Both the position numbers and the translations under genes were made by a program. From a virus: a stretch of DNA of 42,109 bases. The stretch is taken from the IMG/VR virus record IMGVR_UViG_3300031950_000112, positions 1 through 42,109 of that record. One strand, 5' to 3'. Numbering within the stretch: position 1 is the stretch's first letter; each line of letters starts with the position of its first letter. Below, piece by piece: positions 9,404 through 42,109 of this stretch. The notes beneath the pieces are model-generated. The model had not been told where the DNA came from. It saw nothing but the letters and a program-made list of their open reading frames with translations, and did no database searches.

Positions 9404-9808
9404 CTATTCTGCGATTTTGATCCGATATTGCGCGCCCCGATGCCAGTACAACACCCCGCCCACCAACTCGCTGTAGACAAAATCGGACTCGCGAGCCGTC
9501 CAATAATTGCCCCAGTCGGCGATGGTCAAGGTTTGATCGTGCAACCGCGCGTCAATCAGATCGTCCAATGCCTCTGCGTCCGCCTGTGATGTAGAGATCG
9601 CCTTCACGGTGTAGACCAGCGAGCGCGCCCTGCGAGGTGAGCTATTCTCATCTACACCGGAGGATAAACTGAACACCACATATGGCGGCGCAACACCCTG
9701 CGGGGCCAACGTGTTATAAATCGCCGTGCCCCCCAGGGCATTTATCAGAGCCGTACCCGCTGCGAGGTGCGAGTACAGCGCCGAGCCCATAGCTGCAAAG
9801 AGACTCAT
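9404..9808 (-). CDS. Tail terminator / tail completion protein (DUF3168-like)
   Basis: A 134-residue protein opening with a helix (MSLFAAMGSALYSHLAA), followed by a segment with VAPPYVVFSLSSG and later SLVYTVKAIS and DDLIDARLHD, a pattern typical of the DUF3168 family that caps the tail tube at its head-proximal end. It overlaps the HK97 gp10-like gene by 4 nt and precedes the tail tube gene. Confidence 0.75.
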   Translation of the reverse strand: MSLFAAMGSALYSHLAAGTALINALGGTAIYNTLAPQGVAPPYVVFSLSSGVDENSSPRRARSLVYTVKAISTSQADAEALDDLIDARLHDQTLTIADWGNYWTARESDFVYSELVGGVLYWHRGAQYRIKIAE

Positions 9809-10535: not shown

Positions 10536-11095
10536 AAGTCATCCCCATCGCCGACGCGCCAAACGCGTACTCTTTTGGCCACAGCCATGCCGCGGTAATA
10601 ACGTGCCATCTCCAAACACTGCTTCATCCACTGGGAGCGGCTCAAGCTGTGGCCGTCCAGAGATACATCATAGTATGCGGCCACGTTACCCGCTTTACGC
10701 TGCCAGACATCCGCTGCCGCCCCGTTCAGGTCATAGCTCCAACCGCTCAAATAGAGAGCCGTGCCGGCCTGGTCCTGGGCCATGACAATCTCGCCCCGGA
10801 TATAGTCAGCCGTGAAATCTGCCGTGCCCCGTTGGTTGCCAGCCGCGTCCTCCAGCTGGAAATAGGCGGACCCGCCCGCCTCGAAGTTGCCATATCGAGA
10901 ACGGAATCGCTTGTAAACGTAGCTCGAACCATTTACCCACGTTCTCTCCATCGCCAGCGGCTCCCGCAAGACGCGGAACTTGTGCTCATCCAGGATATCC
11001 TGCAAATCCTGGTCACCGAATGTGTCGCCGCTCAACTCGTTCGTCATGCCGCGCAGGCGAGCAATCAAATCCGCCATGCCAGACCTAACGGCCAT
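10532..11095 (-). CDS. Head-tail connector / adaptor protein
   Basis: A 187-residue protein that starts with a helical region (MADLIARLRGMTNEL) and contains DQDLQDILDEHK, as in gp15-type head-tail connectors that bind below the portal. The middle is beta-rich (FEAGGSAYFQLEDAAGNQRG), and the end has helices and a basic patch (AVAKRVRVWRVGDG). The ATG at 11095 overlaps the glycosyltransferase gene by 11 nt; an ATG at 11077 would avoid the overlap. Confidence 0.65.
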   Translation of the reverse strand: MAVRSGMADLIARLRGMTNELSGDTFGDQDLQDILDEHKFRVLREPLAMERTWVNGSSYVYKRFRSRYGNFEAGGSAYFQLEDAAGNQRGTADFTADYIRGEIVMAQDQAGTALYLSGWSYDLNGAAADVWQRKAGNVAAYYDVSLDGHSLSRSQWMKQCLEMARYYRGMAVAKRVRVWRVGDGDDL

Positions 11096-12050
11096 CTCTC
11101 AGCCCCCCGTAGAACGTCACATAATCACGCCCCATGCGCTCCAGGTTCGCGCTGGCCACAGCCCAGGCCCGTGCATTCTCACCTAAACGCTTGCGTAAGC
11201 CGGGATCATCCAATAGCCGCTGGATAGCCTCCGCCAAGGCATCTACATCCCTGGGGGGCACTAACAGACCGTTGATGCCGTGCTCAATCTGCGCCCGCGG
11301 GCCACATACATCAGATGCTATACACGCCAACCCGCAGGCCATCGCCTCCGTCAATCCTAAACCCCATGTCTCCTCATAACATGACGGGAAGACATAGATC
11401 GCGCCACGTCGCAGCTCGTCCCGCACCCGCGCCCGCGGCACGCCCGTGACCAGGCGGGCATTCGCGTTGATCTTCCGTAAGGCCCGCTGCAAGATATGCA
11501 TCCCCTTAGTGGGGGAGCTGGCCCAGGCCGAGGTGGTGACAATGCCCTCGCCACCATCCCCCGGCGAGAAGAAATCCGTGTCGATCCCGTGGGGGATAAT
11601 AGCATCTACCCTGATGCCATGCCGTCGCAAAATAGCAGCAGAATAAGGGTTGAAACAGACTGTTGGTGTGCCGTTGACCGTCTCCCGCCATGATGACCCC
11701 ATCGGCTGGCTCTCACACTTCCCGTCACATATCCCCGTAACCGCCGCGCACGGTTGATCGTAGGCCGCCAGTAACATCCTGCCGGAACAGAAAGGCCAAT
11801 AATCGTGCAGGCTGATACAATGCGGGATATGCGCCAACTGCGCCCACCCAAGCACCCCCAGACCCATGCCGCAATGCACCGTATGAAAATGTACCACATC
11901 TGGGTTGAAGCTGCTGTAGGCCCGTTCCGGGTGGGCGTGCTCTATCTCGACCTCGTGCCCCAGCCGGCGCAGCGCCTCCGCCTGATCGCACAGGGCAGAT
12001 TCCGCCCCGCCCCCCGCGCCTGGGTTGTAGTGCACCAGCAGAATCCTCAT
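11085..12050 (-). CDS. Glycosyltransferase family 4, last gene of the radical SAM/GT cassette
   Basis: A 321-residue GT-B enzyme of the GT4 type. It opens MRILLVHYNPGAGGGAESA, and the nucleotide-sugar region has EETWGLGLTEAMACGLACIA with the EX7E motif. VPPRDVDALAEAIQRLLDD follows, as usual near the C-terminus. It would transfer an activated sugar onto a glycan or protein acceptor. The start ATG forms an ATGA overlap with the radical SAM gene, which decides the start over the longer frame beginning at 12086. Confidence 0.9.
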   Translation of the reverse strand: MRILLVHYNPGAGGGAESALCDQAEALRRLGHEVEIEHAHPERAYSSFNPDVVHFHTVHCGMGLGVLGWAQLAHIPHCISLHDYWPFCSGRMLLAAYDQPCAAVTGICDGKCESQPMGSSWRETVNGTPTVCFNPYSAAILRRHGIRVDAIIPHGIDTDFFSPGDGGEGIVTTSAWASSPTKGMHILQRALRKINANARLVTGVPRARVRDELRRGAIYVFPSCYEETWGLGLTEAMACGLACIASDVCGPRAQIEHGINGLLVPPRDVDALAEAIQRLLDDPGLRKRLGENARAWAVASANLERMGRDYVTFYGGLRDGR

Positions 12051-12850
12051 GCTGTCTCCCCCCAAGGCCGCGCCTCGATGCACCACATGTCACCCGCGAC
12101 ATGTTGGCTTGGCAAAATGTAGTAATCCGCGCAATCCAGGTAGCATGGGACCGGTTTCCGCGTGAGGTCGATCGTGCCATCCAGCCAATTGCCCAATACC
12201 AACTCTTCCCAGTAAGGCGACCTTAGTACGGTAAGACATGGCCACGCCATCCCATCCGGGCCGACGGTCAAGTGGTTGATGCCCCCCTTGCACACCAGCC
12301 CTAATGACCGGTATCCCCCCAGGCCTGCCACCTCCTCGTAAGGCGAGACCTCGTGTGGGATACTTTGCGCATTGAGCCACCCTAGAGCTGCTTGACTGCG
12401 CGCCACGTTGTTGGCATAATCCACAACATTGACATGCACACGGAATCCTGCCTGCCGCAACACCGACACCGCCCACTGCCAACGCGCGTCGTACCACACC
12501 CAGCGAGCGCTTGCGTCGGGGTGGTAGGAAACGTTAATGGCGACAATGTTCTGCGGCTGCGCCTTACACAAACGTAACACGCCATCGGATATCAAGCCGT
12601 TGGTGCTTACCCCAAAGTACGTCGACGGACAGGCCGACATGAGTTCTGGCAGCCACTCCACTAAAAGCGGCTCGCCCCCCGCGATATCTACCAGCTCGGG
12701 TTTGTCCCGATGAATCGCGGCCACCCAGTCCGCCAGGGGACGCGTCGGGGCGTCATATAATTCTGGCCGCAAGGCTACAGTCTTCCGCATCCAACAATAT
12801 GGGCAGCGGTTGGGGCATTGCCAGGTTAGATTGAGCAAAAAATGCTTCAC
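12047..12850 (-). CDS. Radical SAM protein with SPASM/twitch-like C-terminus
   Basis: A 267-residue protein. The [4Fe-4S] motif CPNRCPYC (C12, C16, C19) and the SAM-binding GGEP (58-61) are intact. The C-terminal Cys set (VCKGGINHLTVGPDG then WPC, and later PCYLDC) resembles a SPASM/twitch auxiliary-cluster region, seen in enzymes that modify peptides or sugars. Start GTG at 12850 forms a GTGA overlap with the upstream gene. The substrate is unknown. Context with two glycosyltransferases and a B12-radical SAM enzyme suggests sugar or protein side-chain tailoring. Confidence 0.85.
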   Translation of the reverse strand: MKHFLLNLTWQCPNRCPYCWMRKTVALRPELYDAPTRPLADWVAAIHRDKPELVDIAGGEPLLVEWLPELMSACPSTYFGVSTNGLISDGVLRLCKAQPQNIVAINVSYHPDASARWVWYDARWQWAVSVLRQAGFRVHVNVVDYANNVARSQAALGWLNAQSIPHEVSPYEEVAGLGGYRSLGLVCKGGINHLTVGPDGMAWPCLTVLRSPYWEELVLGNWLDGTIDLTRKPVPCYLDCADYYILPSQHVAGDMWCIEARPWGETA

Positions 12851-14097
12851 GCTATCCCCTCCAGCCGCGCCTTCCAGTAACGTAACTCCCGCTGGGTAAG
12901 CCACGGCGTAGCATTGTACACTTGCGCCATCTGCGGGCCGGTCTCCGGTTGCTCTGCTAGCCATCCCTCTTTGGCAGCATATTCATAGAGCCGCGTACCC
13001 CGTACCGGCGTGCATACCGTCACCTGCCGCCACTGCACTAACCCTTCGCCACAAGCTTGACGTAAGCGCTTCTCCGTGTAGGCCAGGTCTCTAGCTGTTT
13101 CCTGATAGTTCCCCACCATCAGGAAAACCCAATTGCCGATGCCGACCTCGTGGCTCAAACGCAAGGTGTGCCAGATATCATCCTCTGTCGTGGCTTTATG
13201 TATCGCCTGGAGCACACGATTGCTGAAACTTTCCACACCCCACATCACCGCCCGGCAGCCGGCGTCGTACATGGCCTGCAATACATCCCTAGTGTTGTTC
13301 CTCTCCGAGCAACGACCCTGGCATTTCCAGAGCAATCCCAATGGCGCAATACGCGCACATGCCGTCATGAGCCACTCGTTCTGCCCCCCACCGTGGCCGA
13401 CGAGCTCGTCGTCGTACACGAACACACCTCTGCAACCCAGGTCTCGCAATGCCGCCATATCCTGGTAAATCGCCTCAGCCGGGCGATAACGGATACGCTG
13501 GTGGCCAAAAACAGGGTTAGCACAAAAGATGCAATCATGTGGACACCCCCGCGACCACATGGCGATACCCTCCGGCATGGCCAGGGGCGGCTGATTGCCG
13601 CCGTACTCCACCGGCTGCGGATGGTGCACTTGCCACAGCGGTCCAGGGATGTTTTCTATGGCCATCGCCTTGCCCCGGACAATTCCGTGTTGCCGCAGTT
13701 CGAATATCTCGGTCACGTTCCCTTCGGCCTCACCCACTACGGCAGCGTCCGCTCCCCAACCCAAAACCTCGTCCGGGGCGACGCTCACATGGGGGCCACC
13801 CACGGCGATGTATCCGCCATAATGCGCATCACGCAATGCCGCGATGCATTCCCGTACCCCCCTGGCCGCATGAGTCGTACAAGTGAACCCTACAGCGTCG
13901 GGCCAATGTTCCCGCTCGCCCAGCGAGAGCACCAATTTGGCCGGCGAGATGAGCAGAGCCTCTAAATCCCACACCCCCACACTGTGCCCCGCCCGCTCCA
14001 ACACCGCCGCCAGGATGGGCAATCCCAACGGTGGGTTCAGCCGATAATGCACACCCGCATAATGATGCACCGGCGGGTTGAACAGGGCGATTCTCAT
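12847..14097 (-). CDS. B12-binding-type radical SAM enzyme
   Basis: A 416-residue protein with an N-terminal cobalamin-binding-like domain (MRIALFNPP; GGPHVSVAPDEVL; VVGEAEGN) and a radical SAM domain with CPHDCIFC (C185, C189, C192). The classical DxHxxG cobalamin motif is not visible, which is common in this superfamily. Family members catalyse C- or P-methylation and other difficult rearrangements. It sits between a GT4 gene and the SPASM-like gene with 4-nt overlaps at both ends, so all four products are probably made together. Confidence 0.9.
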   Translation of the reverse strand: MRIALFNPPVHHYAGVHYRLNPPLGLPILAAVLERAGHSVGVWDLEALLISPAKLVLSLGEREHWPDAVGFTCTTHAARGVRECIAALRDAHYGGYIAVGGPHVSVAPDEVLGWGADAAVVGEAEGNVTEIFELRQHGIVRGKAMAIENIPGPLWQVHHPQPVEYGGNQPPLAMPEGIAMWSRGCPHDCIFCANPVFGHQRIRYRPAEAIYQDMAALRDLGCRGVFVYDDELVGHGGGQNEWLMTACARIAPLGLLWKCQGRCSERNNTRDVLQAMYDAGCRAVMWGVESFSNRVLQAIHKATTEDDIWHTLRLSHEVGIGNWVFLMVGNYQETARDLAYTEKRLRQACGEGLVQWRQVTVCTPVRGTRLYEYAAKEGWLAEQPETGPQMAQVYNATPWLTQRELRYWKARLEGIA

Positions 14098-15278
14098 ACT
14101 GTATCACCTACGGCGATCAACCCAACGCTTAGGTCGCGCTCGATTGTCTTCAATACAGGTTGCCAATACTCTTCCGTAACCCGATCCGCATCGTATGCCG
14201 CCGCACCACCAATGGCCTTGCGCTGCATCACGGAAAATTCTTGGCTCTGGCTCGCCCGGTAAGCGCGTTCCAGGTATTTGCGGATGTCATGGATGAAAGG
14301 CAACATCTGCCACCCGCCCAGGGGCGTCCAGAACGGCTGCCCCCGCACCTTCCAACCGGCGAAGCATAGCTCCGGCATACTCGTCCAATCGCCAACAATC
14401 ACCGGCGTTCCACATGCCTGGGCCTCCAAGATGGGGATACCAAAACCCTCACCCATCGATGGATTCACCAATACATCTGCCGCATTGTACAGGCGCGCCA
14501 TGAACTCTGGCGGAAAACCCAGCACGTTCCAATACGGGTCACAGAACACCACATGCTCACCGGTCAGACCAAGGTTATGCGTTATTTGCGGCAAATCTAA
14601 ACCGCTCATCTGCGGCCCAGACGTGGTATGCAAAAACAGCATCGCCTTGGGATGCTCTTTGATAAAATCCGCCCAGGCGAATAGAACCTCGGCGAAGCAT
14701 TTGCGGCTCGGCGTACCTTTGTTCGCCGCCACCATGACGGCCAAAAAGTCGACGTCCGTCCTGGGCAGGTTCAGCGTCTTGCGCGCTTCCATTTTGTCCA
14801 GTGGCCTGAAAACTTTGGTGTCCACCCCGTGTGGCACATATAGAGCATCAATGCCAGCCTGCTTCATAGCATTCAATGCAAAACGGCTGTAGACAATGGG
14901 TTGCCAGGCAACGGAGAGCGCGGCCTTGACCGCGTCCGGCACACCTACGTGGTCCACGGGCAGCCATGGGCACCAACGAAACTGGCTCATCGTCTTGGGA
15001 TCGAAAACCCAGGCATCATAGAGCGTGATTACGATGTCTGCCTTGGTGTACTTGGCATGAAACGCCAAGACGTCATTGCCATTAGAGTTGTACCCAAACG
15101 GCAGCACCTTGGTAAGCTCGCCGTCATGCTCTAGGTTCAACGTAGCTCCAGCTAGGCCGTAGTTAGCTGCCAGCGTCACCTTGTGACCCAGTTTCTGAAT
15201 GCGCCACCAAAAAAGGTCGGTTTGGTTACCGTATCCCGTGTGCGTCCAGGGCGCGTTCGAGAACCAAAGGATGTTCAT
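14094..15278 (-). CDS. Glycosyltransferase family 4, first gene of the cassette
   Basis: A 394-residue GT-B enzyme. MNILWFSNAPWTHTGYGNQ opens the N-domain, VPHGVDTKVFRP leads into the C-domain, and the nucleotide-sugar site has GEGFGIPILEAQACGTPVI with EX7E. I chose the ATG at 15278 because GGGGGGAGAG lies directly upstream; a GTG at 15293 adds five residues. It follows the capsid gene group across a large hairpin and begins the four-gene cassette. Confidence 0.9.
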   Translation of the reverse strand: MNILWFSNAPWTHTGYGNQTDLFWWRIQKLGHKVTLAANYGLAGATLNLEHDGELTKVLPFGYNSNGNDVLAFHAKYTKADIVITLYDAWVFDPKTMSQFRWCPWLPVDHVGVPDAVKAALSVAWQPIVYSRFALNAMKQAGIDALYVPHGVDTKVFRPLDKMEARKTLNLPRTDVDFLAVMVAANKGTPSRKCFAEVLFAWADFIKEHPKAMLFLHTTSGPQMSGLDLPQITHNLGLTGEHVVFCDPYWNVLGFPPEFMARLYNAADVLVNPSMGEGFGIPILEAQACGTPVIVGDWTSMPELCFAGWKVRGQPFWTPLGGWQMLPFIHDIRKYLERAYRASQSQEFSVMQRKAIGGAAAYDADRVTEEYWQPVLKTIERDLSVGLIAVGDTV

Positions 15279-15314
15279 CTCTCCCCCCCACACGCTAGTC
15301 TATATCCCCCCAAT

Positions 15315-15375
15315 GTTGCGGCTGGCAGGGCGGGGGAGTCGCCTTTTCGGCCCATGGCGCCTAGCCAGCCGCAGC
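15315..15375 (-). terminator. Large GC-rich hairpin before the GT/radical SAM cassette
   Basis: Arms at 15315-15326 and 15364-15375 pair over 12 positions (one G-T wobble) around a 37-nt loop that has a small GCC-GAAAA-GGC hairpin of its own. It separates the abundant capsid-type genes from the enzyme cassette and may reduce readthrough. No U-tract follows. Confidence 0.5.
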
Positions 15376-20524: not shown

Positions 20525-21772
20525 CTACGCGTATAAGCTAGGCATGGTCTGCAGCTTGGGCCGCCCCCAATCCAACGCCATCACACCATACCGCAGCGCG
20601 TCCATCGCATGATCAGTTTGTTTCTCCGGTTTATCTGTCACTATCCCCCGATGGTCCTTGGCCCACACATACATCTCGAACTCTGCAATGAGCTGCGCGC
20701 AACGTGGCGCGGCCGTAAGCCGGGGACCACCATCTCCTGCCACAGCCAGGCGCGCCTTGACCGCCTGAATCCCCTGGCGTAGATCGTTGCGCGCCGCACG
20801 CGTTGGCACGCCAGCTGACCTTAGCGCCGCAATCAATCCCGCCGCACTAGGGTCAACATACACGGCCTCAACATCATAAACCTGCGCCAACCGCCCGATT
20901 TCCTCAACGAACGATTCCTGCAATACGCGCCGCTGGTAGAACTCCTCAATCACATGCACCCGCCCGTCGCCGTCCACACCGATAACCAGCGCCACGGCCG
21001 GGTTGGTGTAGCCCTCGTCCACGCCGATAATGAATCGCTGGAACTCGGATTTATCACGTTCACGGATGTGGACATCGCGGCGGAACTCATCGTAAACCAG
21101 GCCCTCGAACGCCACGAACTCGGCGTCCAGCTCCTGCGCCGCAAACTGGCCAGTATACACGCGCCGTAAACTGTCTTTAAACTCCGTCGACGTATGCGGG
21201 TTGTCCTCCGTCCGCGCACGGTAGACCTTCAACGTCCCATCCCGCACGCGGTCATAGACCCAGTTACGACCTTTAGGCGTGGTCGTGAGCCAGACGGGTC
21301 CAGCCGTCCCATCGGCACGCACACGGCCAATCACAATGTCGAATGTCTCCCTGGCACATAGCGCAGACTCATCGATGTGTGCCCAATGGGTGTTCGGCCC
21401 ACGCAGGTGCTCTGGCTCGTCCGCGCTGCGGAACAAAATCTGTGCCTTGCCCCAGTAAACCATCATGTCCGACTTGCGAAACATCGCCGGCGTGAACCGC
21501 AACACATCCTGATACGTCCGCAACGTTGCGTCGGCTAACATCCTATATGTTGGCGCAACTACCAGGCCCACGCTAGGCCTATCGCCCCAAGCCAACAGCC
21601 ATTGCAACGCTTTGAGAGCACCGCCATAGGTTTTGCCGGCGCCAATACCGCCGATAAAGGCGCAAAACCTGGCAGAATCGCGCACAAAATTCGCCTGCTG
21701 CGGATAATCCCGCAGGTCATACTCAACTGTCGGGATAGATGATGCGGAAGGCGATGGCAGCGCCATTCTCAC
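20525..21772 (-). CDS. terL: Terminase large subunit
   Basis: A ~415-residue packaging motor. ATPase: Walker A GGIGAGKT, Walker B HWAHIDES, coupling motif WLTTTP. Nuclease: acidic residues in IGVDEGYTNP, VYVDPSAAG and TDHAMDALRYG, as in RNase H-like terminase nucleases. Start is either GTG 21772 or ATG 21766; both overlap the small subunit gene by about 45-50 nt. Confidence 0.95.
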   Translation of the reverse strand: MRMALPSPSASSIPTVEYDLRDYPQQANFVRDSARFCAFIGGIGAGKTYGGALKALQWLLAWGDRPSVGLVVAPTYRMLADATLRTYQDVLRFTPAMFRKSDMMVYWGKAQILFRSADEPEHLRGPNTHWAHIDESALCARETFDIVIGRVRADGTAGPVWLTTTPKGRNWVYDRVRDGTLKVYRARTEDNPHTSTEFKDSLRRVYTGQFAAQELDAEFVAFEGLVYDEFRRDVHIRERDKSEFQRFIIGVDEGYTNPAVALVIGVDGDGRVHVIEEFYQRRVLQESFVEEIGRLAQVYDVEAVYVDPSAAGLIAALRSAGVPTRAARNDLRQGIQAVKARLAVAGDGGPRLTAAPRCAQLIAEFEMYVWAKDHRGIVTDKPEKQTDHAMDALRYGVMALDWGRPKLQTMPSLYA

Positions 21773-22064
21773 CCGTGACCTCCTGCCGCTCGGTGTACCC
21801 GCGCTTTTTGCCTTTAGTGCTCAAGTAATACCTAAGCATCTGCGGGTCGCCAGCGCTAATCAGCTCGATGACCTTCGACTCGGCTATGTCTAGCACGCGC
21901 TCGCACTCATCCCGGTAGGCCTGCTGGATGGTGGGGTACCTTTTGATGTACTTGTCCGCCGTGTGCCAGGAACAACCCACCCGCCTGGCGATGGCGGTGA
22001 TGATACCGCCCGTGCCGGGGATGGCGTCTAGAAAAACCTTCACCGGGATGTTGCTCCGACCCAC
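21723..22064 (-). CDS. terS: Terminase small subunit
   Basis: A 113-residue protein with an N-terminal HTH (GGIITAIARRVGCSWHTADK) and a helical tail, directly before terL. It recognises phage DNA for packaging. GTG is the probable start. It begins 85 nt from the divergent plus-strand HTH-JAMM gene, and the two share the intergenic control region. Confidence 0.85.
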   Translation of the reverse strand: MGRSNIPVKVFLDAIPGTGGIITAIARRVGCSWHTADKYIKRYPTIQQAYRDECERVLDIAESKVIELISAGDPQMLRYYLSTKGKKRGYTERQEVTGENGAAIAFRIIYPDS

Positions 22065-22088: not shown

Positions 22089-22117
22089 TTGACAAACTAT
22101 GTCGCATATGCTATAAT
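22089..22117 (+). promoter_or_regulatory. Perfect sigma-70 consensus promoter for the HTH-JAMM gene
   Basis: TTGACA (22089-22094), 17-nt spacer, TATAAT (22112-22117). Transcription would start near 22124 and leave a 26-nt leader with GGGAGG 6 nt before the ATG at 22150. The 8-bp palindrome GCATATGC (22104-22111) abuts the -10 box, and TGTCAA at 22066-22071 forms an inverted pair with the -35 box. Both are operator candidates, possibly for autoregulation. Confidence 0.85.
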
Positions 22118-22149
22118 TATTTTGACGCAATGAACGACGGGAGGCGCAC

Positions 22150-22767
22150 ATGCTCAATAACCTCATAACCGTGGCAGAAGCGGCAGAACGGCTCAATGTG
22201 TGCGAGAGCCGGGTCCGCGCCATGATTGCCGCCAAACGCCTGCCGGCCAATCGCGTGGGGAGGCAATGGCTCATCTATGCACCCGATCTCGCCCTGGTGG
22301 CAGAGCGCAAACCTGGCCGGCCCGCCACCCGCATCATCATGCCACCGCCCATGCCCTGCGCCGTGAACCTGACAGCGCCAGATCTGATTCCGCTGATTGA
22401 CTGGTACGGTTTCGAGTCTGGCGGTTATCTGTGCGGCCCAGAGAGGACAATAGACCATATCCTGGTGGTCGCGTCCGCCCTGGAATCTCCGAATAGATAC
22501 AAAATGGACGCCACCGAACGGGACATGGCCAGAGCGTATGCGCGGGAACGCGGGTGGCACGTTCATGGCTCGATTCACACCCACCCCTGTGGACCAGTTG
22601 GCCCAACCAAAACAGACATCGCCATCGCACAACGTGGCAACGCCCTGCACGCCGTCTGGCATATACGCTCCGGGACGCTCACATTCTACACCGCAGCAGG
22701 GATTATCTACGTGGTACAGGTTGAGTATCCACGAGACCTCGCTGCCGCATCTCTGCTATTCTACTAG
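22150..22767 (+). CDS. HTH - JAMM (JAB/MPN) metalloprotease-like fusion protein
   Basis: A 205-residue protein and the only plus-strand gene. Residues 5-50 are an excisionase/MerR-type HTH (ITVAEAAERLNV; VGRQWLIY). RKPGRPATR (53-61) resembles an AT-hook. Residues 80-190 carry a complete JAMM signature: E89 in FESGGYLCG, H143-T-H145-P, then T153-x-x-D156, with Thr where Ser is usual. JAMM proteins are zinc isopeptidases or peptidases; phage versions are normally in tail protein K. Here the DNA-binding domain suggests a regulator or host-interaction factor. It has its own consensus promoter and converges tail to tail on the next gene. Confidence 0.85.
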   Translation: MLNNLITVAEAAERLNVCESRVRAMIAAKRLPANRVGRQWLIYAPDLALVAERKPGRPATRIIMPPPMPCAVNLTAPDLIPLIDWYGFESGGYLCGPERTIDHILVVASALESPNRYKMDATERDMARAYARERGWHVHGSIHTHPCGPVGPTKTDIAIAQRGNALHAVWHIRSGTLTFYTAAGIIYVVQVEYPRDLAAASLLFY

Positions 22768-22900
22768 CGCGCAGGACGGAAGCGCGGTCTGCCGACGATC
22801 ACCAAACCGCCCCGTCGCGTTATCGTTGGCCGCGTAGTCCGCACAAGCCCAGCAGGACGGCTAACCGTCCCGCTACCACCAGCAAACACCTCGTCTCTCA
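22764..22900 (-). CDS. Small Arg-rich protein
   Basis: A 45-residue basic protein (about ten Arg; RPTITRRGGLVIVGRPRFR). The ATG forms an ATGA overlap with the stop of the ParB-DUF4417 gene, and GGAGGT lies 8 nt before it, both good signs of translation. Its stop shares the tetranucleotide CTAG with the stop of the converging plus-strand gene. Family not recognised; nucleic-acid binding is only suggested by charge. Confidence 0.6.
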
Positions 22901-24121
22901 TCGCAACGTACCTCCAAACTTGATTGACCGACGGCTGTCCATAAACGTCGGCAACACAACCATGGGAATGCCGATATTTAGAGAACGCACAAACTCGCGC
23001 CCCGGAGCGCCCGCGTACACCAAAAGCTTTTGCGGCTTGAGCCGATCCAGCGCCGTCATAAGGCCATCTCGTGCCCGCGCCACGTTGCCCACGTCCTTGG
23101 GATTGAACGTCTGGAATTGCACGGCCACGCACGGCGCATGTGATGGAATCCCAGCGAAACAGAAATCATAATCATCTGGTCCGGCCCAGTTGATATCTGG
23201 GATAACCGGCACCCCCGCCTCCTGCATATACCTGGCCAACCAGCGCGAACGGTACACGTTGAAAATATGAATGGCCTGCGGCTCGCCGAACCATAACGAG
23301 AAGTTAGGAGCAACACATCCCATAATCCCAGCGTTAATCAGCTTGCTCACAAACTTGTCGGGATACAGCCACATGGACTCGAACCTGCGGTCATCCACAT
23401 AAAAGGACAAAATCACGCGGCGAAAATCCAGCACCCGACAGGTGGCCGCTGAATATACAAGGAAATAGGTTTTCTGCGCGTCGAAAGACCCTAGGTCATC
23501 ACCGGGCCAAAGCTCAAGGCTATCTGGCAACTCCAGCAGCCGGTCATCGCGCAAGGCCGGGATGTTGTACAACTCCTGAGAAGAGAAGGACATGGACGGT
23601 TTAAGCATCATCGCCCCTGCCAGCTCCTCTCCGAAATCGGCCAGGTCTTTCCCCCCCTTGTCCTCTTTCTCGTTCTCCTCCAACAGCTTTGCTATCTCGC
23701 TGGCATCGAATATCCCACCAAGGTCAACCCCAGCCTCTATATCCGCCGCAATCTGTTCAACATCCCAGTCCAGGCCTATCTCAGACGTGCGATTGTCGTA
23801 GTAAGCCAATTTGCGCGCCTTTTCCTCGTCCAGGTCAAGGTCAACACGCTGCACTACCACGAGCTCAGAGCCGTTCGTCTCCACGACGCGAATAGGCAAC
23901 TCTAGCTCCTCGGCTACCTCCAAGGTCTTGTTGCCCGCAATGACGCGGCCCTGTTTATCCACAACGATGGAACGCCCAGCCCCGCATTCCCGCAGGGACC
24001 TCTCCAGCATAGACCGTCCACGCTCAGTCCCCCGGTTGGCGTTGCGTGCATCTGGCATTAAATCGTCGCGTTTAGAAACTTTCTTCGCCACTCTCCAATA
24101 TCCCCCGCCATGGCTGCTCAT
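22898..24121 (-). CDS. ParB-like domain fused to a DUF4417-type domain
   Basis: A ~407-residue protein. The N-terminal ~120 residues resemble ParB-N/sulfiredoxin-like domains (NANRGTERGRSMLERSL; VIAGNKTLEVAEEL; LAYYDNRTSEIGLDWD). The C-terminal ~200 residues (VDDRRFESMWLYPDKF; VIPDINWAG; GNVARARDGLMTALD; LLVYAGAPGREF) match the DUF4417 family, known from phages but without a settled function. It follows the HNH gene and precedes the terminase region. The start is unsure: ATG 24121, or GTG 24091, which reduces the overlap with HNH. Confidence 0.7.
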   Translation of the reverse strand: MSSHGGGYWRVAKKVSKRDDLMPDARNANRGTERGRSMLERSLRECGAGRSIVVDKQGRVIAGNKTLEVAEELELPIRVVETNGSELVVVQRVDLDLDEEKARKLAYYDNRTSEIGLDWDVEQIAADIEAGVDLGGIFDASEIAKLLEENEKEDKGGKDLADFGEELAGAMMLKPSMSFSSQELYNIPALRDDRLLELPDSLELWPGDDLGSFDAQKTYFLVYSAATCRVLDFRRVILSFYVDDRRFESMWLYPDKFVSKLINAGIMGCVAPNFSLWFGEPQAIHIFNVYRSRWLARYMQEAGVPVIPDINWAGPDDYDFCFAGIPSHAPCVAVQFQTFNPKDVGNVARARDGLMTALDRLKPQKLLVYAGAPGREFVRSLNIGIPMVVLPTFMDSRRSIKFGGTLR

Positions 24122-25310: not shown

Positions 25311-25502
25311 TTATCGCTCTTCCTCTGCCGGGGTACACAGCATTTGCGGCTCGCTTAGCGAGGCTGGTCTCCACTTGCCTTTTGGCTCGCACCCCATGGC
25401 TGGCATTCTAGACCACACTGGCTCGCTCTCCCGCCATGGTTTCCTCTTGGGTCTCGGCTCGCTCCACGCCCCTGGTCTCCTCCTCCGCAGCGGCTCGCTC
25501 AT
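25311..25502 (-). CDS. 12-residue-repeat protein encoded by repeat array 1
   Basis: A 63-residue frame made of five 12-residue units that each begin SEP (once CEP). Its ATG forms an ATGA overlap with the stop of the IS110-like gene, and it ends 17 nt before the ssb start, so it is placed like a real gene. It is exactly coextensive with the 36-bp DNA array, and the same repeat is read in other frames elsewhere, so the DNA repeat may be what is selected, not the peptide. Confidence 0.4.
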   Translation of the reverse strand: MSEPLRRRRPGAWSEPRPKRKPWRESEPVWSRMPAMGCEPKGKWRPASLSEPQMLCTPAEEER

Positions 25503-25527
25503 CTCCAGCTTAATTTATTTTGCACCA
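25348..25527. repeat. 36-bp repeat array 1 (five units)
   Basis: Units start at 25348, 25384, 25420, 25456 and 25492, exactly 36 bp apart. On the plus strand each opens GGCTCGCTC (units 1 and 2 vary at the end), and a second conserved block TGGTYTCC starts 17 nt later in most units. The other ~19 positions vary. The array fills the interval between the IS110-like gene and ssb, with the last core right at the stop codon. Confidence 0.9.
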
Positions 25528-26278
25528 CCGCCTGCGGCGCGATATACGTCGTGTGGCCGAGAATGTCCTGCGCATACGGCATCGTCACCGGCAGACCCTC
25601 CGCCTGCCGCCACACCACCCACAAATGCTGCAGGAAGATTTTTATCATCTTCCGCCACGCCATATTGTGAATATGCGCGTCGCTGTAGCGCGTCTTACCG
25701 TCCACCTTCTCTGGCACGGGGTGCAATTCTCGCTGCCGCCGTTTCTCATCATAATAGATATCCACATATACCGGCGTCTGCGCCCGGAGGAAGCTCACAG
25801 CGATATTATAGCACGTTGCCTTGAGTCTGCGGTTATAATGCGACTTCTCCCCACGCGTATTCCGCTCCGCCTGGCCGTCCACAACACCGAAACCGGCATA
25901 CCGCCACAATGCGCTGACGGTGTCTGCTTTGCTGATGTCGTCTATCAGCGCCAAAAGCTGCGCTGCCAGCCCTCCGGCGCCGAGGCCTTTGATACCGGTT
26001 ACCCATTCCCAGACCTCGCCGAGCTCCTCGCCGGCCTCAATCATCCGCTGGCGCGCCATAGCCAGCACATCATCTAACTGTAAACAATCTACCATCGTGC
26101 GCTCAAAAGCCGCGTCCAGGCAAGATTTGCCACGCTCGGCCGCCACGATACGCAACGTGTGCCGTTGCCGCATGAGCATCAGCTCCTCCCACCAGAGGTA
26201 GCTCTGCCACAGCCTCGGGTGCTTCCTCGGTTTCGGTTCAGGCCGCCTATCCTGATACAACTCCAAATCCGTGTCCAT
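25499..26278 (-). CDS. IS110-like protein lacking the RuvC domain (Transposase_20-like)
   Basis: A 259-residue protein. Residues ~92-180 resemble the C-terminal Transposase_20 domain of IS110/IS116/IS902 recombinases: helix-hairpin-helix VTGIKGLGAGGLAAQLLALI, ALWRYAGFGVVDGQAERN, then EKSHYNRRLKATCYNIAVSF. C-terminal helices MAWRKMIKIFLQHLWVVW follow. The N-terminal DEDD RuvC-like domain of IS110 is missing, replaced by ~90 helical residues, and the usual Ser-Gly before the catalytic loop is not evident. It is probably domesticated. It lies between two 36-bp repeat arrays in the replication module. Confidence 0.65.
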   Translation of the reverse strand: MDTDLELYQDRRPEPKPRKHPRLWQSYLWWEELMLMRQRHTLRIVAAERGKSCLDAAFERTMVDCLQLDDVLAMARQRMIEAGEELGEVWEWVTGIKGLGAGGLAAQLLALIDDISKADTVSALWRYAGFGVVDGQAERNTRGEKSHYNRRLKATCYNIAVSFLRAQTPVYVDIYYDEKRRQRELHPVPEKVDGKTRYSDAHIHNMAWRKMIKIFLQHLWVVWRQAEGLPVTMPYAQDILGHTTYIAPQAVVQNKLSWR

Positions 26279-36811: not shown

Positions 36812-37111
36812 CCTTTCAATTCGGCCTGCCTCATCAGTCCCCAGGCGGCCACCCCTGGGGAGACCGGGGCTTGCGCCCCGGTTTCGGCCTAACGCTTGGC
36901 CTTGTAAACCTCCTCCGCCTGGCGGATGAGAGCCCGGCGGTAGTTTGTGGCCTTCGCAGTGCAAACATTGCACCGGAAGGCCAGGTCGCGCTCGGCCAAC
37001 CACACAATAGCATCGTACACTTGCGCCCACCGGGGGAGAACCATTTTCCGCGTCATCGTACACCTCCTGTTGTGTTTCTATTCTCTGGTCTTATCATAGC
37101 ACACAATCGAG
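36812..37111. repeat. Duplicated cassette, copy 1
   Basis: About 300 bp that matches 37452-37749 with few changes. It contains a promoter remnant (-10 TATGAT near 37092-37097, but no -35 match), a CxxC protein gene and a hairpin (arms ACCGGGGC/GCCCCGGT). In the hairpin stem, copy 1 has a G-T wobble where copy 2 has a Watson-Crick pair, so pairing is preserved. Confidence 0.9.
36889..37056 (-). CDS. 55-residue CxxC protein, copy 1
   Basis: MTRKMVLPRWAQVYDAIVWL is followed by RCNVCTAKATNYRRALIRQA and EEVYKAKR. AGGAGG lies 6 nt before the ATG. Nearly identical to the 54-residue gene at 37529-37693 except residues ~11-17. One CxxC pair could bind zinc in a dimer. Short early genes of this type are often host-takeover factors, but no function is recognisable. 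Confidence 0.65.
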   Translation of the reverse strand: MTRKMVLPRWAQVYDAIVWLAERDLAFRCNVCTAKATNYRRALIRQAEEVYKAKR

Positions 37112-37451: not shown

Positions 37452-37749
37452 CCTTTCAATTTGGCCTGCCTCATCAGTCCCCAGGCGGCCACCCCTGGGG
37501 AAACCGGGGCTTGCGCCCCGGTTTCGGCCTAACGCTTGGCCTTGTAAACCTCCTCCGCCTGGCGGATAAGAGCCCGGCGGTAGTTTGTCGCCTTCGCAGT
37601 GCAAACATTGCACCGGAAGGCCAGGTCGCGCTCGGCCAACCACACAACCGCCTTATGCGATTGTGTCCATCTGGGGAGAACCATTCGCGTCATCGTGCAC
37701 CTCCTGCTTGGTTTTTTATTTTCTGGCCTCATTATAGCACACAATCGAG
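37452..37749. repeat. Duplicated cassette, copy 2 (with intact promoter)
   Basis: Matches 36812-37111 at an offset of 640 falling to 638 because of short indels. It carries the intact -10 box and the 54-residue gene. Its hairpin (arms GAAACCGGGGC/GCCCCGGTTTC, 11 bp, 4-nt loop) lies after the stop codon. Confidence 0.9.
37529..37693 (-). CDS. 54-residue CxxC protein, copy 2 (first early gene)
   Basis: MTRMVLPRWTQSHKAVVWLA then RCNVCTAKATN, as in copy 1. AGGAGG lies 6 nt before the ATG at 37693. It is the first gene behind the strongest early promoter, so it should be made immediately after infection. Function unknown. Confidence 0.7.
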   Translation of the reverse strand: MTRMVLPRWTQSHKAVVWLAERDLAFRCNVCTAKATNYRRALIRQAEEVYKAKR

Positions 37750-37759
37750 CATTTGTCAA
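37731..37759 (-). promoter_or_regulatory. Perfect sigma-70 consensus early promoter
   Basis: On the minus strand TTGACA (37759-37754), 17-nt spacer, TATAAT (37736-37731). It drives the early block. It shares TTGACAAA and GCTATAAT with the plus-strand promoter at 22089-22117, so both should be read by the host housekeeping sigma factor. Confidence 0.9.
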
Positions 37760-41912: not shown

Positions 41913-42109
41913 ACCACCGGGCCCGTCCAGTTGTAAAGGTTTTTCTGGTAGTTGTGATAGTGGCTGATATCGTTCACCCGCGCCTGTACCCAGGCCGCCC
42001 CGCTCCCGTTGGAGTCATACGCCATCACAAAGTAGCGATGGTAGCTGGGGTAGCCGTAACAATACGAGTCGCCGCTTTGCTCAATGCCCCAGGTGCTAGC
42101 ACTGGTCAA
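41909..42109 (-). CDS. Collagen-like tail fibre protein, C-terminal part (continues from 201-1)
   Basis: This is the C-terminal 66 residues of the fibre protein that starts at 201. It is in frame with that part across the window ends. The domain (STWGIEQSGDSYCYGYPSYH, ISHYHNYQKN) matches the paralogue at 201-572 in length and HxH position. It ends GPVV, then overlaps the next collagen-like gene by 4 nt. Confidence 0.8.
   Translation of the reverse strand: MTSASTWGIEQSGDSYCYGYPSYHRYFVMAYDSNGSGAAWVQARVNDISHYHNYQKNLYNWTGPVV

Follow-up and report, generated by a model that had tools for sequence, protein, structure and literature searches.

The window analysed here is a virus record taken at its whole length of 42,109 nt (42 kb), in which terminase, portal, head, DnaB-like helicase and SSB genes lie on the minus strand. 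Its ends, positions 1-9 and 42101-42109, are identical (ACTGGTCAA), and the genome is possibly circular or terminally redundant. A gene on the plus strand, between a terminase small subunit gene and a ParB-like gene, encodes a protein with an N-terminal HTH domain and a C-terminal JAMM domain. The features of this locus are as follows:

21723..22064, minus strand: terminase small subunit gene (terS), the divergent neighbour; 81% identical to the terS of a sister phage, with a weak PHROG terS match
22089..22117, plus strand: sigma-70 promoter TTGACA-17-TATAAT with a TG before the -10; 12/12 match, 17-nt spacer
22104..22111, no strand assigned: 8-bp palindrome GCATATGC, a weak candidate operator, in the -35/-10 spacer and abutting the -10
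22139..22144, plus strand: Shine-Dalgarno GGGAGG, from sequence, 5 nt before the ATG
22150..22767, plus strand: gene for the HTH-JAMM protein (205 aa); ORF, strand and coordinates exact on translation
22162..22290, plus strand: HTH_17/excisionase-family domain, residues 5-47; Pfam E 9.8e-10, 39 bits against a cut-off of 27
22306..22323, plus strand: RKPGRP tail, residues 53-58; common to free-standing HTH proteins of the same type
22405..22656, plus strand: Prok-JAB/JAMM domain, residues 86-169; Pfam E 9.6e-9, 35.6 bits against a cut-off of 25, and Foldseek match to JAMM1
22414..22416, plus strand: E89, catalytic glutamate position; invariant in a 14-sequence alignment
22576..22584, plus strand: H143-T144-H145, metal ligand positions; H143 and H145 invariant (14 sequences)
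22606..22617, plus strand: T153-x-x-D156, S/T and metal ligand positions; D156 invariant and the S/T nearly so (14 sequences)
22898..24121, minus strand: ParB-like + DUF4417 gene, the convergent neighbour; PF14386 E 1.9e-37, PHROG 940

The first-pass annotation described a fusion of HTH and JAMM domains, encoded opposite the other phage genes under its own promoter. The fusion proved genuine, as Pfam places HTH_17 and Prok-JAB in one 205-aa chain, both above their gathering cut-offs and with the full set of JAMM residues, and the coordinates and promoter bear out the orientation. An antisense ORF at 22117-22662 (minus strand) gave no match in Pfam, NCBIfam or PADLOC and has a codon score of -0.03. 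Because this ORF combines a negative score with the lack of a family match, and because the frame is decided by domain matches whose active-site residues are intact, we take the plus-strand ORF as the gene. Its own codon score is 0.02, against 0.12-0.26 for the structural genes, and some other accessory genes score similarly low. That it is the only gene on its strand, as had been claimed, is supported short of proof: none of the eight other long plus-strand ORFs has a Pfam match over the cut-off (one has a sub-threshold match to DUF4192), and a PHROGs search of two of them returned nothing. From its sequence, the gene is a real and unusual one, with a domain architecture that is new within a known peptidase family and a predicted function.

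The JAMM signature reported earlier is complete in the translation (E89, H143-T-H145-P146 and T153-K-T-D156), so that the Glu, HxHP and (S/T)xxD elements of the JAMM/MPN+ set are all present. In an alignment of the protein with 13 natural JAMMs, E89, G92, D120, H143, H145, P146 and D156 are invariant. AlphaFold prediction from the single sequence was uninformative (pLDDT 39). With the 13 natural JAMMs supplied as the MSA, the mean pLDDT was 70, with ten-residue blocks at ~71-82 for residues 1-40 and at ~72-93 for residues 91-180, in a model where the placement of the HTH relative to the JAMM domain is unreliable. In the PDB, Foldseek ranked Pyrococcus JAMM1 first, both by itself and together with SAMP2, a ubiquitin-like protein (E 3e-7 to 4e-7; TM by target 0.78-0.80), the best single match being 5ld9 (TM 0.80 by target, E 2.9e-7). 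DSY2949, AMSH, AF2198, SRU_2040 and others ranked lower, and Cap3 (9ild) was weaker. As regards the fold, the proposed check by structure prediction and Foldseek came out in favour of the annotation: the C-terminal half matches JAMM1 and, by comparison of the model with 5ld9, has the JAB/MPN fold, with peptidase activity as the prediction. In the Foldseek viral library, the named top matches were JAMM or HTH proteins, none demonstrably with both. The closest curated functional model in NCBIfam is that of a desampylase, with a score far below its cut-off, and the PADLOC JAB models match only weakly.

A lone JAMM protein (L170/L199) from a genome of the Chloroflexota search shares 36-38% identity with the JAMM half. 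In a tree of 35 rows the two pair at 100/100 and are nested at 90/93 among free-standing JAMMs. The JAMM half falls outside two other clusters, that of tail K (81/98) and that of RadC, which has its own long branch (100/99). As the free-standing rows come mostly from the Chloroflexota search and hence from one phylum, the nearest JAMM here means the nearest among those sampled. With the free-standing peptidases, i.e. Prok-JAB (PF14464), Pyrococcus JAMM1, the Haloferax desampylase HvJAMM1 and Deinococcus DRJAMM, the phage protein has in common the JAMM residues, the fold, the tree neighbourhood and an S-P-x-(R/H/E)-(Y/F)-x-M-D segment; it differs in that they are single-domain proteins, whereas it is phage-borne and carries an N-terminal HTH. 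A gammaproteobacterial relative (L163, Thiohalobacter) lies directly behind an E1-like gene, read by eye as ThiF/MoeB-type, an arrangement that has been reported for JAB peptidases in sulfur-carrier systems (PMC1779556), and DRJAMM, another prokaryotic JAMM, cuts a MoaD-MoaE fusion (PMC8832034). The JAMM half appears to be related to cellular JAMMs that process ubiquitin-like or sulfur-carrier proteins.

Two other families that combine a JAMM with phage or defence functions were compared. Tail tip protein K (JAB + NlpC/P60) also has a JAMM motif in a phage protein, but the HTH-JAMM protein has no NlpC/P60 domain, falls outside the tail cluster and is encoded between packaging and ParB-like genes, in line with the earlier view that it is not a tail JAMM. 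The JAMM deconjugases of type II CBASS (Cap3) and Bil belong to the same peptidase superfamily, and a role of Cap3 in deconjugating CD-NTases has been described (PMC10449767). The phage gene differs from these in being phage-borne, HTH-fused and flanked by terS and the ParB-DUF4417 gene rather than by E1, E2 or Ubl partners; no E1, E2 or Ubl gene was recognised among the window genes examined.

For the HTH half, the NCBIfam excisionase-family model TIGR01764 scored E 3.5e-11 (43 bits against a cut-off of 28.8), and the domain model is helix-helix-strand-strand, with helices at 8-15 and 19-27 and strands at 33-36 and 39-43. Profile scores over the curated cut-off and a winged HTH secondary structure place it as an HTH_17/excisionase DNA-binding domain. 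Among the phage genes matched, in the part of the genes that was scanned, there was no integrase to serve as partner for an Xis function. The HTH half resembles small free-standing HTH proteins with the same kind of tail, including a Herpetosiphon plasmid ORF (L004, tail RKPGAPRK), a podovirus ORF (L005, tail RKAGRPRK) and ORFs from the Chloroflexota search (L171, L172, L176, L179 and L189). Such proteins (L004, L005, L171, L176, L189) share the HTH and a (K/R)xGxP-type tail with the phage protein but are mostly 60-100 aa long without an enzyme domain, although relatives fused to or paired with a nucleotidyltransferase exist (L195, L202). The GRP motif noted as AT-hook-like is indeed present (53-RKPGRP-58); since it belongs to a recurring HTH module, it does not count as independent evidence of an AT-hook. 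The HTH_17-GRP module also recurs in toxin-antitoxin-like settings: in L195 (1060-1713) it is fused to a nucleotidyltransferase, and in L202 the HTH gene overlaps an ORF read as AbiEii-type (ORFs at 1435-2169 and 2048-2893).

The promoter of the gene had been called a consensus one, and its 12/12 match is indeed perfect; about 0.005 such sites per 42 kb are expected by chance in random sequence of the same composition. It is not unique, since the minus strand carries a second 12/12 TTGACA-17-TATAAT promoter (37759) as well as an 11/12 site (31613). The promoter at 22089-22117 thus appears to be one of a few strong promoters of host type that the phage carries. The palindrome GCATATGC in its spacer occurs once in the window, where 1.4 copies are expected by chance, and we estimate a chance of ~4% for an 8-bp palindrome anywhere in a 17-nt spacer; it is at most a weak candidate operator. 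A search for inverted repeats near the promoter found nothing strong. A small-ORF cassette (MTR..MVLPRW...EVYKAKR) is present in two copies, the first of them preceded by the promoter at 37759; at the 3' end of each copy lies a type II hammerhead ribozyme (36820-36889 and 37460-37529, minus strand, 54-55 bits).

The nearest relatives by TerL are three contigs (L126-L128; TerL 70%, terS 81% identity), in which a gap of 17 bp containing no gene separates a ParB-like methyltransferase gene from terS (in L128 the former ends at 9607 and the latter starts at 9625). The HTH-JAMM gene is accessory, as the nearest relative lacks it at the same site: it is a moron gained here, or it was lost in the sister. 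The three contigs score identically and are probably one virus, i.e. one independent comparison, so gain and loss are not polarised. Of the marks of a moron, the gene has its own promoter and is absent at the same site in a relative (one sister lineage); an own terminator is missing, with no terminator-like site on the plus strand at 22767-22900. The convergent neighbour has undergone a domain swap, as its ParB-like N-terminal half is common to the sister (L128 8351-9607), followed by DUF4417 here and by a DNA methyltransferase there. A transposase-type gene at 25499-26278 (minus strand; PHROG 4285, E 8e-43) is 71-72% identical in the sister phage, and is therefore apparently part of the phage core rather than a passing insertion. 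Between the head gene and connector-type genes, ORFs at 11085-15293 (minus strand) resemble, by eye, radical SAM and B12-binding radical SAM proteins and glycosyltransferases, an unusual cargo in a structural region. An int-alpA RNA family match (15306-15371, minus strand, 42.9 bits) lies upstream of the glycosyltransferase-like gene at 14094-15293.

TerL is ~40-54% identical to proteins encoded by Chloroflexota genomes, compared with 31% for the phage collection, and together with the HTH and JAMM relatives this suggests a Chloroflexota host. The assignment stays tentative because the TerL-matching regions share no other detected gene with the phage; no close prophage was found.

The search for the same architecture in phages and hosts that the first-pass annotation had called for found no second fusion in phages, plasmids, viral contigs or genomes, several of the searches being limited by the patterns used. 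With tblastn, no relative was found in 50,697 phage records, nor in 72,556 plasmids after two full-length-looking matches were rejected; these, on Variovorax and Cupriavidus megaplasmids (29% and 25% identity over 84-87%), lie in an ORF that reads as fumarylacetoacetate-hydrolase-like and lacks the JAMM residues. Scans of viral and genome contigs with the single protein, sensitive to close relatives only, gave nothing, and neither did a scan with a two-row alignment. Two earlier HTH..JAMM patterns carry no weight as evidence of absence, since both require a G before the Trp codon that the window lacks and so could not match the window itself; among the matches listed for the first were mainly tail K proteins or chance matches. 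A fusion pattern validated on the window matched 11 genome stretches and one viral stretch, with no fusion among them, and a JAMM-only pattern validated in the same way found 15 viral JAMMs, none with an HTH, a few of which extend beyond the stored stretch. Profile scans of ~1,200 genomes in three phyla yielded HTH-only or JAMM-only proteins among the best loci read. Across these searches the architecture appears rare and is currently a singleton, for which uniqueness cannot be claimed.

Taken together, we tentatively favour, at a probability of about 0.4, the reading that this accessory phage gene encodes an early-expressed, DNA-tethered JAMM (iso)peptidase that may regulate its own expression. 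Judging from the promoter sequence, host RNA polymerase would transcribe the gene early in infection. The HTH would bind DNA, plausibly at the gene's own promoter, and so limit expression, as the domain type and the weak palindrome GCATATGC would allow. Leftward transcription of terS and the upstream genes could then run antisense across the gene and silence it at a later stage. The JAMM half would hydrolyse a bond that follows the C-terminal glycine in a host protein of the ubiquitin-like or sulfur-carrier kind, which may free or deconjugate the ubiquitin-like protein near or on DNA, and the phage might benefit through counter-defence or through remodelling of host metabolism. A more specific form of this, which we consider unlikely, is a DNA-tethered deconjugase made from a captured host JAMM and a DNA-binding domain, which would strip ubiquitin-like modifiers at phage or host DNA early in infection and thereby defeat a ubiquitin-like defence or control transcription.

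The alternative that survives best, though doubtful, is a protease-coupled transcriptional switch resembling ImmA-ImmR in one chain, in which the HTH would repress or activate and the JAMM would cut a repressor, an antirepressor or itself on a signal. A DNA-binding regulator is linked with a metallopeptidase in ImmA/ImmR as it is here, modules of this type are described in ICEs and phages, and the promoter with its spacer palindrome GCATATGC would suit a switch, as would the occurrence of related HTH modules beside or fused to effectors (the nucleotidyltransferase of L195 and the overlapping AbiEii-type ORF of L202). However, ImmA and ImmR are two proteins and ImmA is a peptidase unrelated to JAMM; the fold matches and the tree place the phage protein among JAMMs, in a lineage of the kind that cleaves Ubl tails, and its neighbours, terS and ParB-DUF4417, include no repressor partner.

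The JAMM fold might instead work on nucleic acid or nucleotides, brought to DNA by the HTH. A JAB domain next to a DNA-binding domain has precedent, since RadC is a JAB clade fused to a DNA-binding HhH domain and proposed to process nucleic acid (PMC5512222), and L199, the closest relative, matches RadC over a short stretch of 21 residues (E 5.6e-5). The phage protein itself does not match RadC in Pfam at E<=1, carries a different DNA-binding domain, lies far from the RadC branch in the tree and keeps the S-P-x-R-Y-x-M-D-x-x-E segment of free-standing JAMMs, which is absent in the aligned RadC sequences. A RadC-like role is therefore disfavoured and has a small chance. We give a similarly small chance to a purely transcriptional regulator in which the JAMM half would serve for sensing or docking and not for catalysis: this is a single protein with a predicted substrate, and MPN-minus domains elsewhere are catalytically inactive within complexes (PMC8832034), but unlike those domains it has kept every catalytic residue. 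Least probable is a recent chance fusion or decaying cargo without a selected function, which the singleton status across all searches and the atypical codon usage might suggest but which the intact frame, active site, perfect promoter and ribosome-binding site argue against.

If the DNA-tethered peptidase that we favour is active, it would be a phage enzyme coupling DNA recognition to the removal of ubiquitin-like modifiers, a combination otherwise seen in eukaryotic MYSM1, a SANT/SWIRM + MPN deubiquitinase, which is similar in fusing DNA- or chromatin-binding domains to a JAMM peptidase and different in those binding domains and in its eukaryotic origin. It would also offer a direct handle on whether prokaryotic ubiquitin-like conjugation acts on DNA-bound proteins or in phage defence, in under-studied bacteria that are possibly Chloroflexota. 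If the protein only regulates itself, it would still illustrate cleanly how a phage can take up or retain a peptidase of cellular type by joining it to a common HTH module.
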